DNA of 64,000 bases, taken from Lachnospiraceae bacterium (lineage in GTDB: Bacteria > Bacillota > Clostridia > Lachnospirales > Lachnospiraceae). The translations under genes and the position numbers were made by a program. Shown piece after piece: positions 27,167 to 34,947 of this stretch (position 1 is its first letter; every line of letters begins with the position of its first letter). Under the pieces are notes generated by a model. That model made no database searches and was not told the DNA's origin. It saw only the letters and a list, made by a program, of their open reading frames with translations. The DNA lies in the NCBI GenBank assembly GCA_024697225.1, contig JAILGA010000143.1:1-64000 (forward strand). The letters are read 5' to 3'.

Positions 27167-27908
27167 CTGTCATACCATCCTCTGTATCGTCTGCGTTGCC
27201 GTCCTCTGTCTCAGGTGCATCGGCATCATCGGGCTTTATCTCATGCGGCACTCCCAGTTCTCTCTCCTTTTGTCTTATGACCTTTTCACGGGCGGCAAGA
27301 TCCTCCGCCCACGAAGAATACTCATTCAGCACATTGCGCCTGTAATTGATTATATTATCAGTTTTACTTGTTGCCGCGACTATGAACATCACTATAACAA
27401 GCAATACAAGTATCACATTGACAGCCACGGACAGCCCCATACCAAAACCGGGCTTTTGTCTGGGAGTCTGTATAATGCACTCCTTTACACGATGATCACC
27501 GGATAATCCCCGCCTTGTGAATGTCACGGGAACGGGTATCGAAGAAAGCTCGTCGGGTTCGTAACCCTGATCCATCAGCATGCTTCTCAGATCCTGCAGA
27601 TACTCCCACCCCACAGGCGTTGTGAATATCCGGTTCTGGATCGCTTTTTCATAGAGCATTTTGATATTGGCTGACTTGCCGTTACTCAGGTAGCGGTTTA
27701 GATGTTCGATACGTATCTGGTCGGTTCTTGCAGCCTCGGCGTCTTCCTTTATCAGGAATCTGTATCCCCGCACGGTAAGGAAGTTCTCCCGTCCCGTACC
27801 GTCATCGTCGGAGAGAGCCGAAAGCGCGTTTTCATTGGCCACAGCCGAACGCGCCGCATCATCTTCGGAAAGAAGCTTCTCATTCATTTGGTGTCTCTCC
27901 CGCCACAA
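27159..27908 (-). CDS. Hypothetical single-TM protein
   Basis: 249 aa ORF; 8-nt overlap with downstream response regulator; hydrophobic segment VAVNVILVLLVIVMFIVAA, then acidic C-terminus. Confidence 0.75.
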   Translation of the reverse strand: MWRERHQMNEKLLSEDDAARSAVANENALSALSDDDGTGRENFLTVRGYRFLIKEDAEAARTDQIRIEHLNRYLSNGKSANIKMLYEKAIQNRIFTTPVGWEYLQDLRSMLMDQGYEPDELSSIPVPVTFTRRGLSGDHRVKECIIQTPRQKPGFGMGLSVAVNVILVLLVIVMFIVAATSKTDNIINYRRNVLNEYSSWAEDLAAREKVIRQKERELGVPHEIKPDDADAPETEDGNADDTEDGMTDG

Positions 27909-30084
27909 GGACCATGACGCTCCTGGATCTGACAGTCATCCTGTTTTCAAATAAAAGCTTAGGGATCCGCCTGTAATACCTGCCGCTCACATCGCCGGTA
28001 TCAACGGCAAGAAACCAGTGTTCATAACCCGAGAATACGGGAAGAGTCACCTCTGCGTCTTCCCAGTACGGGTTCAGAATGAGCATTACAACATCATCCC
28101 TCTCGGTATCCTTTACGGTCTCATGCCCCGCAAAACATATGCAGATCTGTTTCGTCTCGGTAGTAGCCATTGTGATATTACCGTTAATATCAAAGAACGC
28201 CACGCCGGGCAGTCCGCAGAGCGCATGCGGCAGTTCTCCGCGTATCGCGGCATGATGTCTTCTGAAATGTATCATGTTTCTGTAGAAATCAAAGAAGTTC
28301 TTATTTTTGTCAAGATATGTCCAATCAAGCCACGATATCTCATTATCCTGACAGTAGGTATTGTTATTCCCGAACTGAGTGTTCGCAAACTCGTCACCTG
28401 CGAGAATCATGGGCGTGCCTCTGCTGCACATGAGTATCGCGATGGCATTTCTCATCAGGCGGAATCTCAGATCAAGTACCTCGGGATCGTTCGTATCGCC
28501 CTCCACACCGCAGTTCCATGAGTTGTTGTCATCTGCTCCGTCGGTGTTGTTCCAGCCGTTTGCCTCGTTGTGCTTGGTCTGGTAGGAGTACAGGTCATAG
28601 AGCGTAAATCCGTCGTGACAGGTTATGAAATTGACAGATGAATTGTAACCTGCATACTGCGTATGATACATATCCATGGAGCCTGTTATGCGCTTGACCG
28701 CCTCGGGCATCACCCAGTAATCGCCCTTAATGAGCTTTCTGATGTCGTCCCTGTATCTGCCGTTCCACTCCGCCCAGCGTTTCCATGCCGGGAAACTGCC
28801 GACCTGATACATCCCTCCGGCATCCCATGCCTCAGCAATGAGCTTTACGTTGCCAAGGAGCGGATCATATGCCAGTCTCTGAAGCAGAGGGGGATTCTCC
28901 ATCGGCGATCCGTCCTCGTTACGTCCCAGTATACTTGCCAGATCAAAGCGGAAACCGTCTACCCTGTATTCCTCAGCCCAGTATCTCAGACATCTGACGA
29001 TAAGCTCCTGCACTATGGGCTGATTGCAGTTCATGGTATTGCCGCAGCCGCTGAAATTGTAATATCCGCCGTCTGGTGTGAGCATGTAATAGATATTGTT
29101 GTCAAATCCCTTGAAGGAAATGACGGGTCCCATCTCATTTCCTTCCGCGGTATGATTGAACACCACGTCAAGTATCACTTCTATATTGTTGTCATGGAGT
29201 TCGCGAACAAGCTCCTTGAGCTCCACTCCCTCGCGGTTCAGCACATCTTCAGCAGCGTAGCTGGTATTGGGTGAAAAGAAGCTGACCGTATTGTATCCCC
29301 AGTAATCGATGAGTCGTCTCCCGTCATGAATGCGCTCGTTAATCGCTTCGTCAAACTCAAATATGGGCATGAGCTCCAAAGCTGTGACCCCGAGATTTTT
29401 CAGATATCCGATCTTTTCTTTTATGGCATGGAAGGTTCCCGGAAACTTCACTCCGGAAGATGGATCGATGGTAAATCCCCTCACATGCATCTCATAGATG
29501 ACCGTATCCTCCATCGGGGTATTGGGCGACGTCGCTGCATTCCACTCAAAATTATTCTGCACCACCCTCGCACGATATCCCGTACCTGCGGGATTTCCCG
29601 GTTCGCCCCAATGACGCTGTCCCGCAACTGTCCTTGCGTAAGGATCAAGAAGCTGCTTTCTCTTATCGAACAGAAGACCCTGTGCCGGATCCCACGGACC
29701 GTCCACCTGATAATTGTATTCCAGGTCTCTTATGTCCAGACCGAAAACTATCATGGAGAACACTCTTCCTATCCGGTAAGCCTTCGGAAATGGAATCGTC
29801 GCATAATGCTTCTTTTCTCCGCGATGGAACAGAAGAAGCGTAACGCTCTTTGCACCGTTTGAATGCACTGTGAAATTCACGCCGTCCGTAAGTGCGGTCG
29901 CACCGTACATATCATATATTCCCGGGCGCACCCTGAAACCATTTACTTCATCAAGCGCGAGCATCTGCCTTGGCTGCCTTGCGTATTCCGGCTCCGCATC
30001 ATCATCAAGGCTTACCGCTCTTCGATCTCCGAAAACACCCTCATCGGTTTTTGCGATCGCTTCCCCGTTTTTTTCAGCTTTCAT
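27880..30084 (-). CDS. glgX: Glycogen debranching enzyme GlgX-type / isoamylase (GH13)
   Basis: 734 aa; VIYEMHVRGFT, VILDVVFNHTAEGNE, VDGFRFDLAS, LIAEAWD, NFITCHDGFTLYDL, GTPMILAGDE. Confidence 0.93.
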   Translation of the reverse strand: MKAEKNGEAIAKTDEGVFGDRRAVSLDDDAEPEYARQPRQMLALDEVNGFRVRPGIYDMYGATALTDGVNFTVHSNGAKSVTLLLFHRGEKKHYATIPFPKAYRIGRVFSMIVFGLDIRDLEYNYQVDGPWDPAQGLLFDKRKQLLDPYARTVAGQRHWGEPGNPAGTGYRARVVQNNFEWNAATSPNTPMEDTVIYEMHVRGFTIDPSSGVKFPGTFHAIKEKIGYLKNLGVTALELMPIFEFDEAINERIHDGRRLIDYWGYNTVSFFSPNTSYAAEDVLNREGVELKELVRELHDNNIEVILDVVFNHTAEGNEMGPVISFKGFDNNIYYMLTPDGGYYNFSGCGNTMNCNQPIVQELIVRCLRYWAEEYRVDGFRFDLASILGRNEDGSPMENPPLLQRLAYDPLLGNVKLIAEAWDAGGMYQVGSFPAWKRWAEWNGRYRDDIRKLIKGDYWVMPEAVKRITGSMDMYHTQYAGYNSSVNFITCHDGFTLYDLYSYQTKHNEANGWNNTDGADDNNSWNCGVEGDTNDPEVLDLRFRLMRNAIAILMCSRGTPMILAGDEFANTQFGNNNTYCQDNEISWLDWTYLDKNKNFFDFYRNMIHFRRHHAAIRGELPHALCGLPGVAFFDINGNITMATTETKQICICFAGHETVKDTERDDVVMLILNPYWEDAEVTLPVFSGYEHWFLAVDTGDVSGRYYRRIPKLLFENRMTVRSRSVMVLVAGETPNE

Positions 30085-30290: not shown

Positions 30291-33200
30291 ATGGCAGAAA
30301 GAAAACGTATTGCTCTGCTCCTTGGGCAGGCAGAAGAATTCTATCAGCGCCGCTTTATCGACGGATTTTTGAAACAGACATTTAAGGCCGATCTTGATGT
30401 CTGTGTTTTTTCTATGTTCCTTAAATACCAGGATACCGAGGCCAGAGAACGGGGGGATACCAGGATCTATTCCCTGATCAATTTCTCCCTTTTTGACGCT
30501 GTCGTCGTATTGCCGGATACGATACAGACACCCGGTACCGCACAGATGATCGAAGAACGGATCAAAAAAGAATTTGACGGTCCCGTGCTCTATGTCGATC
30601 TTGAAAACAGCAGCTTCCCGTATATCCTGACAGACAGTTATACCCCGGTAAAGCAGCTGATCGAGCATCTCGTGAAAGTCCACGGATATCGTGACATAGC
30701 ATATCTCACCGGCAAAAAGAAGCACGAGCATTCAAAGATCAGACTGCAGGCGTACAGAGATGTCATGAACGCCTCCGGGCTGACCGTAAGAGAGGACCGG
30801 ATATTCTACGGAGACTACTGGTATACCAGTGGAAAAACCTGTGCGGAGGAATTATTAAAAAACAGAGATGATCTTCCGGAAGCAGTTGCATGTGCAAATG
30901 ATTTTATGGCCATCGGTTTATGTGAAGAGTTGACGCATCATGGCATAAGGATCCCCGAAGATATCGCCGTCATTGGTTTTGATACATCTGAAGAGGGTCA
31001 GAGAAGTCCCAGTCCGTTGACAAGTGCCTATATACCCGCCAGATCGACAGGCAAAAGAGCGGCCGAAAGCATCATCAGACTGATGCATGGCGAGACAATA
31101 GACGAATCACCTGATGAAACCGATCTCTTCATCGGAACCAGCTGCGGCTGTGCAGACAACAAATCGCTCTACGAGAATTTCAGAAGAAAATCCTGGTCAA
31201 CAACGCTCTCCGAAGAGGGATTCCATTCCATGCACAATCACTTTATCGAAGACATGCTCGCGCAGAAAGACCTGCTGGCATTTTGGGATACGGTTTATTC
31301 CCATGTATATCAGATTAAGGATTTCGACAGTTTTCACCTGTGCATTCCGACAGACTGGGATGACTCCTCTCTCTCGGATGATGAAACCCTCAGCACCAAG
31401 GCCTATCCGGATCAAATGATCCATGCACTGGCTTCCTACCGCGGCGGCGGACGAATTGACAGAGTCGGTCATGATGAATGCTTTGACACATCGATTCTAC
31501 TGCCTGAAATATATGAGCCTCATGAAAAGCCGTCATCATTTTTCTTTACTCCGCTCTATTTCGGTGCCAGGAATTTCGGCTATGCGGTTATAAGCTACGG
31601 CAATCTGACCATATGCTATGATGAGATATACAGACAATGGATGCAGGCGTTCTGCTGCGGTATGGAAGGCATACGCCGCACTCTTCTTACACATGCACTG
31701 CGGAGAGTCGAATCAATGAAGGGGCTGAAGACGAAATTCCCTTCGGGATTTACGTCAGAGCCGGTCGTCAGTCCGGATATTACCGAAGAAGACGAAGAAT
31801 CACTCGATTTCGTAAGACAGATTCTGGATGAAAACCTTTTCACCTATCATTTCCAGCCGATAGTCAGCGCCTTTGACGGCAGTATATACGCTTTTGAAGC
31901 TCTTATGCGCGTGGAGACAGGAAAGAGGATGTCTCCCCTCGAAATCCTGAAATATGCAAACATGCTGCGGCGGCTCCCGGATGTCGAAAAGGCCACATTC
32001 ATGAATGTACTCGAACAGATGGCAAAAGAGAAAGATTCTTTCGGAGACAGATACGTATTTATCAACAGCATTCCGGGAACAAGACTTAGTGAATCGGACG
32101 AAAAGCGGATCGAGGAGCTTTTGCTCTCCCGTAACAATCAGGCAGTTGTGGAACTCACCGAACAGGCAGAGCTCAACGATAGAGAGTTGGACCAGATGAA
32201 AAAGAGGTTTAACAGTCTGGGCATAGACACCGCCGTCGATGACTTCGGAACAGGATATTCCAATATTTCCAATCTGCTCCGCTATATGCCGAATTATGTC
32301 AAAGTGGACCGTTCCCTTCTTTCGAATATTCAGGACAGCCGTTCGAGACAGCATCTCGTAAGAGAGATCGTGAGTTTCTCTCATGATGCCAATATCAAGG
32401 TTCTGGCGGAGGGTGTGGAGACATCGGATGAGCTGCGTACCGTGATCAGTCTCGGCTGCGATCTGATACAGGGATTCTACACAGGCAGACCCTCCCCTGA
32501 AATACCAAAGCATATCGCTCCGGAAATCGTACAGGAGATCTGCTTCTATCAGAGAGAACGTCAGGAAGGATCCAACCGACGCAGTTACAGAACCGGGCGC
32601 AGCAACAGATTATCCGCCGGTTCCCTTGAGCGTGAGGGTTATCAGATCCTTGTCACCACCGGTGATATGACAACCTTCAGAGACTATACCTTAAGCGGGA
32701 CACCCGGTCAGAACACCGAACTCACCATAGAGATAAAAGAAGGCTATGACGGACAGATCACGCTCGAGAATGTAAGTCTTGTAAGTCCAAGGCTCAGACC
32801 CTGCATCGAGATCGCCCCGGGTGCAAAAGTGGTACTGGTACTCCACGGTGAAAACACCCTTACAGGCGGAGGCATTCTTGTTCCCAAAGGTGCTGAACTA
32901 ACCGTAAGAGGTGACGGCGATCTGCTGATCCGCATGAACCAGAGGCAGTATGCTGTGATCGGCACATCAAAAGGATCAGCCGGCCGCATGGAATTCTGCC
33001 ATGAGGGCACGATCCTGCTGGATGCCGGCGGCACGTGCGGCGTAGGCATCGGCGGCATGACCGGCGCGGACATCCGCATCAGCAGCGGAAAGTTCGTGAT
33101 ACAGCAGCGAAGCGATCAGGCTGCCGGCATAGGAAGCATAGAAGGTGAAGTGATAATGGAGGTCAGCGACTGTGACATCGACATGACCTTCTCAGGCACT

Positions 33201-33581
33201 TCGGGAGTAGGCATAGGTTCGTTGTCAAATGATGCCGCCCTCGATGTGTCACGAACCTATTTCCATTGCTCTGCCGACAGCGGAGAATATACAGCTATCG
33301 GCAGTTTACGGGGCAGCCTTGCCAAAGTTCTTTTCGCCGACTTCGGAACCGACATGGAGATCAATGCTCACTCCGCTGCCGGAACCGGTGCACTGAACGG
33401 ATATTCGGAGATCGTGATGATCGGAACTAATTACCGCTATACCGGCAACGGTGCTCTGAATTATGCTTTCGGCAGCGCAAACGGCAACGGGAGTATCAAG
33501 ACCAGACAATCCAATATAAATGCTCACGCCAATAATGATTCCGGACGCATCACCGAGCTTGCGGATGATGATAAGAGATAA
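30291..33581 (+). CDS. Chimeric c-di-GMP phosphodiesterase-type protein: LacI-type periplasmic-binding-like sensor, GAF-like middle region, EAL domain, C-terminal beta-solenoid-like domain
   Basis: Sensor: RIALLLGQAEEFYQRRFIDGF...DIAYLTGKKKHEHSKIRLQAYRDVM...ACANDFMAIGL...IPEDIAVIGFDTSEEG. EAL: FHFQPIVS-like YHFQPIVSAF, FEALMRV, FINS, VELTE, AVDDFGTGYSN, YVKVDRS, LAEGVET, LIQGFYTGRP. C-terminus: repeated G(V/I)GIG/AGIGS/TAIGS turns. Track ORF begins at TTG 30261; ATG 30291 preferred. Confidence 0.88.
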   Translation: MAERKRIALLLGQAEEFYQRRFIDGFLKQTFKADLDVCVFSMFLKYQDTEARERGDTRIYSLINFSLFDAVVVLPDTIQTPGTAQMIEERIKKEFDGPVLYVDLENSSFPYILTDSYTPVKQLIEHLVKVHGYRDIAYLTGKKKHEHSKIRLQAYRDVMNASGLTVREDRIFYGDYWYTSGKTCAEELLKNRDDLPEAVACANDFMAIGLCEELTHHGIRIPEDIAVIGFDTSEEGQRSPSPLTSAYIPARSTGKRAAESIIRLMHGETIDESPDETDLFIGTSCGCADNKSLYENFRRKSWSTTLSEEGFHSMHNHFIEDMLAQKDLLAFWDTVYSHVYQIKDFDSFHLCIPTDWDDSSLSDDETLSTKAYPDQMIHALASYRGGGRIDRVGHDECFDTSILLPEIYEPHEKPSSFFFTPLYFGARNFGYAVISYGNLTICYDEIYRQWMQAFCCGMEGIRRTLLTHALRRVESMKGLKTKFPSGFTSEPVVSPDITEEDEESLDFVRQILDENLFTYHFQPIVSAFDGSIYAFEALMRVETGKRMSPLEILKYANMLRRLPDVEKATFMNVLEQMAKEKDSFGDRYVFINSIPGTRLSESDEKRIEELLLSRNNQAVVELTEQAELNDRELDQMKKRFNSLGIDTAVDDFGTGYSNISNLLRYMPNYVKVDRSLLSNIQDSRSRQHLVREIVSFSHDANIKVLAEGVETSDELRTVISLGCDLIQGFYTGRPSPEIPKHIAPEIVQEICFYQRERQEGSNRRSYRTGRSNRLSAGSLEREGYQILVTTGDMTTFRDYTLSGTPGQNTELTIEIKEGYDGQITLENVSLVSPRLRPCIEIAPGAKVVLVLHGENTLTGGGILVPKGAELTVRGDGDLLIRMNQRQYAVIGTSKGSAGRMEFCHEGTILLDAGGTCGVGIGGMTGADIRISSGKFVIQQRSDQAAGIGSIEGEVIMEVSDCDIDMTFSGTSGVGIGSLSNDAALDVSRTYFHCSADSGEYTAIGSLRGSLAKVLFADFGTDMEINAHSAAGTGALNGYSEIVMIGTNYRYTGNGALNYAFGSANGNGSIKTRQSNINAHANNDSGRITELADDDKR

Positions 33582-33609: not shown

Positions 33610-34947
33610 ATGAATGAACGGGATAATCTTGGAAGCCGTCTTGGTTTTATACTTTTGAGCGCAGGCTGTGCCATAGGATGCGGGAATGTGTGGAAGTTTC
33701 CGTGGATGGCCGGTCAGTACGGCGGCGGCGGGTTCCTCCTGATATACTTTTTCTGTCTGCTGCTTTTAGGCATTCCCTGTCTGGTGATGGAGTTCACCCT
33801 GGGCCGCGCAGCCAATGCCAGTCCGGTGAAAATGTATCAAAAGCTGGAAAAGCCCGGCCATAAGTGGCATCTGCACGGATGGTTCTGTCTGCTTGGTTGT
33901 GTTGCGCTGATGGCGTTTTATACGGTTGTCACCGGCTGGATGATCTATTATTTTGTGTCATTCCTAACAGGAAAAAGCGCCGATCTCGGCTTTGTTGAGA
34001 TGATCACGAATCCGGAAGTAAATGTCATATATATGCTGATAGCTGTAGTTGTCGGATTTGCGGTGCTGTGCTTTGACATAAAGTCTGGTCTTGAGAGGGT
34101 TTCAAAGTATATGATGATCGGCCTGTTCCTGCTCATGCTGGTCCTGGCCGGCAGAAGTCTTACCATGCCGGGTGCTGCGGAAGGTCTCAGTTTCTATCTG
34201 ATCCCCGACTTTTCCAAGATCAACGGCTCGGTCATAGTCGGCGCGATGAATCAGGCGTTTTTCACGCTCAGCCTCGGCATCGGCGCCATGGCGATCTTCG
34301 GCAGTTATATCGACAAAAAACACTCACTCCTGGGAGAGTCGATAAATGTTGTGATACTGGATACACTTGTGGCGATCATCTCTGGTCTCATCATGTTTCC
34401 GGCCTGTTTTACATATGGCATAGAGGTAAATGCGGGGCCCGCACTGCTATTCAACACCATGGCCACTGTGTTTAATAATATGCCCGGCGGAAGGATATGG
34501 GGATCCCTTTTCTTCCTCTTCATGGTTTTTGCCGCATTTTCAACCGAACTTGCAGTATTTGAAGGGATACTCGCCTGTGTGCGCGAGCTGACCGGATGGG
34601 AACGCCCCAAGGGGTGCTTTGTCTGCGGTGTGGTGATAGCGGCACTGTCTCTGACCACGGCCCTTGGCTACAGTGTTCTTCCCTTCCAGCCCTTTGCTGA
34701 AGGTTCTGCCTGGCTGGATTTCTGGGATTTCATCGTGAGTACTAACCTGCTTCCTTTAGGCTCGGTCGTGATGGCTCTGTTCTGCTGCTACAAGTTCGGC
34801 TGGGGTTGGGAGAATTTTGTCAGAGAGGCAAACGAGGGAGAAGGACTGAAGATAAAGAACTGGATGAGGCCTGTATTTATGATCTTCGTTCCGATCTGTG
34901 TTATTGTCCTCTATGTGATAGGACTTATGCAGTTTTCGTGGAAGTAA
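33610..34947 (+). CDS. Neurotransmitter:sodium symporter (NSS/SNF) family sodium-dependent transporter
   Basis: 445 aa; GSRLGFILLSAGCAIGCGNVWKFPWMAGQYGGGGFLLIYF, PCLVMEFTLGRA, LSLGIGAMAIFGSYIDK. Confidence 0.95.
   Translation: MNERDNLGSRLGFILLSAGCAIGCGNVWKFPWMAGQYGGGGFLLIYFFCLLLLGIPCLVMEFTLGRAANASPVKMYQKLEKPGHKWHLHGWFCLLGCVALMAFYTVVTGWMIYYFVSFLTGKSADLGFVEMITNPEVNVIYMLIAVVVGFAVLCFDIKSGLERVSKYMMIGLFLLMLVLAGRSLTMPGAAEGLSFYLIPDFSKINGSVIVGAMNQAFFTLSLGIGAMAIFGSYIDKKHSLLGESINVVILDTLVAIISGLIMFPACFTYGIEVNAGPALLFNTMATVFNNMPGGRIWGSLFFLFMVFAAFSTELAVFEGILACVRELTGWERPKGCFVCGVVIAALSLTTALGYSVLPFQPFAEGSAWLDFWDFIVSTNLLPLGSVVMALFCCYKFGWGWENFVREANEGEGLKIKNWMRPVFMIFVPICVIVLYVIGLMQFSWK

Follow-up and report, generated by a model that had tools for sequence, protein, structure and literature searches.

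The closest described systems are the EAL phosphodiesterases (PF00563; YahA/PdeL, MucR, MorA, BlrP1), the LacI-family sugar-responsive regulators (CcpA, RbsR, LacI, CelR) and, on the side of β-helices, secreted Clostridial proteins such as Cthe_2159 (PF14262) and the bactofilins, which are cytosolic β-helix polymers. LapD and FimX are EAL receptors without the catalytic and metal-binding residues of such phosphodiesterases. An open question is how individual phosphodiesterases achieve a local effect although they draw on a shared pool of c-di-GMP. Among c-di-GMP sensing proteins, PBP-clan domains are prevalent, of which the LacI-related one may bind sugars, and the term beta-helix is absent from the main text of the review concerned (PMC8846402). 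We analyzed a window of 64,000 nucleotides (contig JAILGA010000143.1 of the Lachnospiraceae bacterium assembly GCA_024697225.1), in which an earlier note, made from the sequence alone, had pointed to a gene for a LacI-type sensor, an EAL domain and a C-terminal Gly-rich β-helix-like domain in one protein.

Reading frame and domain layout

The reading frame was found where the earlier note had placed it. It is uninterrupted up to the stop codon at 33579-33581 and encodes 1096 amino acids, or 1106 from an alternative start. The nearest homologue found, from a sheep-omasum Lachnospiraceae MAG (L089), aligns from the methionine of the ATG start with 63% identity over 1094 amino acids and a single one-residue gap, and full-length homologues are also present in same-genus genomes (G015 and G034, at 39%). 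The genome is a draft of 165 contigs, which might speak for two genes fused near 32.6 kb by a frameshift or an assembly error, the flaw that the earlier note itself had named. However, the identical EAL/solenoid junction is present across the family (80 best loci, from many genomes) and L089 is collinear across it. We therefore rejected such a chimera as hardly conceivable. No transmembrane segment or signal peptide was detected in the protein (maximum 19-residue Kyte-Doolittle mean of 1.3), so that secretion was rejected too and the earlier prediction of a cytosolic location held. We conclude that this is a single, intact gene and that its product is an enzyme with a predicted location in the cytosol.

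Table 1 Features of the EAL-solenoid gene and its direct neighbours in the window
Feature	Position	Strand	Basis or remark
Whole gene, 1096 aa from ATG 30291	30291..33581	+	ORF list
Alternative TTG start, 1106 aa	30261 (same gene)	+	ORF list
LacI/PBP-I type ligand-binding fold without HTH, aa 1-285	30291..31145	+	Pfam, Foldseek
α/β region, possibly GAF-like, aa 287-480	31149..31730	+	Full-length model
EAL c-di-GMP phosphodiesterase domain, aa 509-734	31815..32492	+	Pfam PF00563, Foldseek
Linker helix between EAL and solenoid, aa 744-759	32520..32567	+	Models, alignment
β-Solenoid domain, coils of 27-30 residues, aa 764-1081	32580..33533	+	AlphaFold2, repeat Gly positions
SNF-family Na+-dependent symporter	33610..34947	+	Pfam PF00209; 28 bp downstream of the EAL gene
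Glycogen-debranching/isoamylase-like gene (CBM_48 and α-amylase)	27880-30084	-	Pfam; divergent from the EAL gene

The AlphaFold2 model of the full-length protein (pLDDT 85), in which the placement of the domains is not informative because of a pTM of 0.50, contained a PBP fold, an α/β region, the EAL domain, a linker helix and, in residues 764-1081, almost only strands. The architecture is thus four-part and not three-part as originally described, since an α/β region of 190 amino acids between the LacI-type and EAL domains had been overlooked. The Gly-rich C-terminal β-helix was borne out by its repeats and an all-β model; its size, given before as about 310 amino acids, was revised to about 320, with a short helix joining it to the EAL domain. 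E749 and I750 of this helix are nearly invariant in the homologue alignment.

The N-terminal part is indeed a LacI/PBP-I fold without a preceding HTH. It matched PF13377 (E 4e-29, amino acids 125-275) and PF00532 (E 1e-13, amino acids 92-265) in Pfam, and the LacI ancestor 9nt4, CcpA (1sxg) and RbsR (9ny7) in Foldseek with a TMt of about 0.8. No HTH in the protein matched Pfam above the cut-off, and there is no room for one, because the first PBP strand comprises residues 6-13 of the full-length model. The LacI-type fold is followed by a GxSCGC motif that is conserved in the relatives. A helix of 35 residues (445-479) closes the α/β region. This region matched nothing in Pfam or among PDB sequences, and in one of 36 relatives GAF_2 was matched at E 0.009, which is only a hint at a GAF assignment.

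The middle of the protein was confirmed as an EAL domain (PF00563, E 8e-52, 176 bits versus a curated cut-off of 31.3), with the EAL domains of FimX, LapD, YahA and MorA as Foldseek matches. It possesses Q522, E536, R540, N592, E621, E624, D650, D651, K671, D673, E707, E710 and Q727. As FimX and LapD are among the closest structural matches, and as degenerate signalling domains (GGDEF) are frequent in the family, the EAL domain could in principle be an inactive c-di-GMP receptor and the protein an effector rather than an enzyme. This is very unlikely given that all 116 relatives keep the catalytic and metal-binding residues, with the exception of one T>V and one K>T exchange. Pfam revealed no GGDEF domain in the window protein, and none of the 40 GGDEF domains in its solenoid-bearing relatives has the canonical GG[DE]EF motif, which leaves hydrolysis as the conserved catalytic output. 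The window protein is probably an enzyme that degrades c-di-GMP upon sensing a sugar-like ligand.

The SNF symporter gene is absent next to the relatives and probably not part of the EAL-solenoid system; nor do the relatives have the debranching gene as a neighbour, apart from a single 25% match two genes away at one locus (L162). A guess at the ligand from the operon (SNF transporter, glycogen debranching) was rejected, as these neighbours are not conserved. Of the earlier note's interpretation, the cytosolic sensor-phosphodiesterase architecture was supported, and the EAL catalytic set is intact; an amino-acid-derived ligand found no support, the transporter being absent beside relatives. 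A GGDEF, EAL or LacI-GGDEF gene adjoins 9 of 80 loci, a raw count that is at most suggestive; one further LacI hit, at L115, is a split half of the EAL-solenoid protein itself and was left out of the count. No Rfam match to a c-di-GMP riboswitch was found anywhere in the window.

The EAL-solenoid family and its relatives without the tail

Both EAL and solenoid were found in 116 relatives, most of them from MAGs; the window contributes one copy. Both domains were present in all 80 best loci of named genomes, connected by a near-constant linker of about 22-26 amino acids. We defined the family by an EAL domain of the high-scoring subfamily followed by the solenoid within about 26 amino acids, which includes the window protein. 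The 80 loci belong to Lachnospiraceae, Eubacterium, Ruminococcus, Saccharofermentans and other Clostridia, and at least 56 of the 80 named records have a ruminant source, as judged in part from known strain and study names. Two loci (L119 and L122) are labelled Bacteroidales and Bacteroides and are suspected to come from mislabelled or contaminated MAGs. At E 1e-5, the solenoid profile was matched in 30 of 397 genomes of the family-level sample: 26 of these encode EAL-solenoid proteins (two with a truncated solenoid), and four are weak matches to other proteins. The order sample had matches in 11 of 392 genomes (two weak) and the phylum sample in 3 of 399. Within the genus, the distribution of the EAL subfamily is patchy, with matches in 8 of 61 genomes at E 1e-55, of which one is far weaker than the others. 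No solenoid was found on plasmids or phages. The EAL-solenoid family is apparently uncharacterized, and it forms a large group in rumen and gut Clostridia.

The N-termini were typed with home-made HMMs, so the counts are approximate: 50 proteins had the order LacI-relay-EAL-solenoid, 36 LacI-relay-GGDEF-EAL-solenoid and about 19 a short form with EAL and solenoid, while a few each carried GNAT, GGDEF only or two hydrophobic segments. By sequence, the EAL-solenoid pair is a near-constant unit behind a choice of predicted interchangeable N-termini, among them the LacI sensor. In two proteins (L076 and L079), the two N-terminal hydrophobic segments precede a degenerate GGDEF-like region, so that both EAL and solenoid would face the cytosol. 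The genome of the window has a second EAL-solenoid gene, with a GNAT N-terminus (L002/L088, contig C131, 1438-3801).

A GNAT acetyltransferase is likewise fused to the EAL-solenoid unit in L054 and L083; besides LacI it is thus another kind of input or enzyme joined to this unit, and one that the window's own genome has as well. In an R. flavefaciens MAG (L115, 4468-7811), LacI and EAL-solenoid are encoded by separate ORFs that share about 73 bases, either through a frameshift or as a natural split. Another protein of the window's genome (L017, 499-3513) extends about 430 amino acids beyond its EAL domain and reads by eye as PAS-GGDEF-EAL followed by a PAS-like part.

An EAL-only search retrieved five close LacI-GGDEF-EAL proteins (L214-L218) that end 20-30 residues past the EAL domain, showing that the solenoid is not indispensable. 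In an EAL tree, a quick one in which many branches are weak and three rows have long branches, L214 and L217 are nested among solenoid-bearing proteins, which indicates secondary loss of the solenoid; the remaining three split off close to the base, where gain and loss are both possible. At least three changes of solenoid presence are needed on this tree. The EAL scores separate 159 proteins with a solenoid (274 or more) from 25 without (127 or less), but this split reflects the retrieval of loci and not a strict coupling of EAL and solenoid. The next EAL relatives outward (L219-L226) are GGDEF-EAL proteins that end right after EAL; most have about 1000 amino acids, an N-terminal hydrophobic segment and an extracellular-type sensor.

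One or more losses of the solenoid inside the clade, from proteins that are otherwise intact, would fit a passive passenger, i.e. a translocated secreted domain without a specific role. We regard this as decidedly unlikely: the solenoid is kept in 116 relatives over wide divergence, the linker preceding it hardly varies in length, and an omega of 0.09-0.29 reveals purifying selection, albeit laxer than that on EAL.

Structure and possible role of the β-solenoid

When the C-terminal domain was modelled alone with 64 homologues, AlphaFold2 produced an all-β solenoid with a pLDDT of 94.8 and a pTM of 0.89. In these homologues, Gly is invariant or nearly so at positions 861, 891, 921, 948, 976, 1004, 1033 and 1061, i.e. 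at a spacing of 27-30. The case for solenoid repeats rests on alignment and model, because a Gly autocorrelation test was borderline (p 0.05). The last 340 residues of the window protein had no match in Pfam, and no family in Pfam, NCBIfam, PHROG or PDB sequences covers the solenoid; it is a domain that the searched copies of Pfam and NCBIfam lack. Two of 64 solenoid members, though not the window copy, matched Cthe_2159 (best E 1.7e-4). Foldseek matches of the solenoid model were weak and mostly to β-helix proteins (TM of about 0.2-0.4); none in the PDB was significant (best E 0.035, TM about 0.2-0.3), and the best match among viral models had an E of 0.0011.

The earlier note had likened this domain to secreted β-helices, and the likeness was corroborated by four more distant proteins (L051, L052, L053 and L179) encoded by genomes of the same order. 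The domain HMM hits them at 1e-12 to 1e-15, whereas their reversed and shuffled versions score at noise; the four proteins have hydrophobic signal-like N-termini and no EAL domain. Since such distant relatives look like secreted β-helix proteins, the solenoid probably represents a secreted fold of which one branch has come to serve in signalling proteins with a predicted cytosolic location.

Our preferred reading, to which we give a probability of about 0.6, is that of a ligand-gated cytosolic c-di-GMP phosphodiesterase whose solenoid is a rigid module for assembly or docking. Sequence and models provide its parts: a LacI-type PBP without HTH, an α/β region with a long helix, a complete EAL residue set, a β-solenoid and no export signal. 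The PBP would close upon binding a small metabolite from the cytosol, which is most likely a sugar, since most LacI-fold sensors bind sugars; the closure would be relayed via the α/β region and its terminal helix to the EAL dimer and would alter the hydrolysis of c-di-GMP to pGpG. In other family members, the interchangeable N-termini would supply the input. The coils proximal to EAL are the most conserved (entropy 1.75-2.06 versus 2.46-2.74 distally) and most likely pack near EAL, but this gradient could simply be due to the way in which the solenoid's N-terminal cap folds. Along its length, the solenoid would serve as a rigid module for homo-oligomerization or for a partner protein and so place the enzyme; assembly or partner docking is its most likely role.

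A more far-reaching variant is that solenoids stack head to tail and polymerize in the cytosol, giving ligand-gated phosphodiesterase filaments or patches with local depletion of c-di-GMP. We consider this quite unlikely; if true, a β-solenoid scaffold borrowed from secreted proteins would serve compartmentalized second-messenger signalling.

The earlier note had also considered polysaccharide binding. If the solenoid bound, for instance, glycogen in the cytosol, it would be a second sensor for the phosphodiesterase. Cthe_2159, its weak sequence neighbour, is a carbohydrate-binding family, the best structural neighbours are polysaccharide-active β-helices, albeit not significant ones, and the debranching-like enzyme is encoded divergently. 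However, Trp makes up 0.1% of the solenoid domain family and is missing from the window copy, which speaks against classic glycan binding, and the conserved aromatics are scattered. Moreover, the PDB fold matches stay at E 0.035 or worse with a TM of about 0.3, and the debranching gene is not retained beside the relatives. With so little in its favour, we judge this role unlikely, and continue to prefer assembly or docking.

Comparison with known systems

No characterized equivalent of this architecture was found in the libraries searched, nor any description of EAL with a β-helix or solenoid in the literature searched, which covered a minority of the subscription papers; within this scope the architecture is undescribed, as the earlier note had suspected. 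The family is of interest in that a rigid β-solenoid stays fixed to a phosphodiesterase while the sensor is swapped.

Bactofilins resemble the solenoid in being cytosolic β-helices, but none of 64 solenoid sequences matched the Pfam bactofilin domain at E 1. Cthe_2159 and other secreted Clostridial β-helix proteins share Gly-rich coils and detectable HMM similarity with the solenoid; unlike the window protein, they have signal-like N-termini where inspected and no EAL, and the window copy has no Pfam match. From LacI-family regulators, which have the same PBP-I ligand-binding fold, the protein differs by the absence of a DNA-binding HTH and by EAL as its output. It has not lost the catalytic residues as LapD/FimX-type receptors have, and it lacks the GGDEF that precedes EAL in bifunctional GGDEF-EAL proteins. 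With the EAL phosphodiesterases it shares the fold and the full catalytic set, but it has a LacI-type PBP sensor, no GGDEF and a C-terminal β-solenoid. The nearest relatives without the tail are L214-L218 from Lachnospiraceae, which have LacI, relay and EAL in common with the window protein but keep a degenerate GGDEF and stop shortly after EAL. Since related copies with and without the solenoid exist (L068 versus L214 or L217), its role is directly testable.
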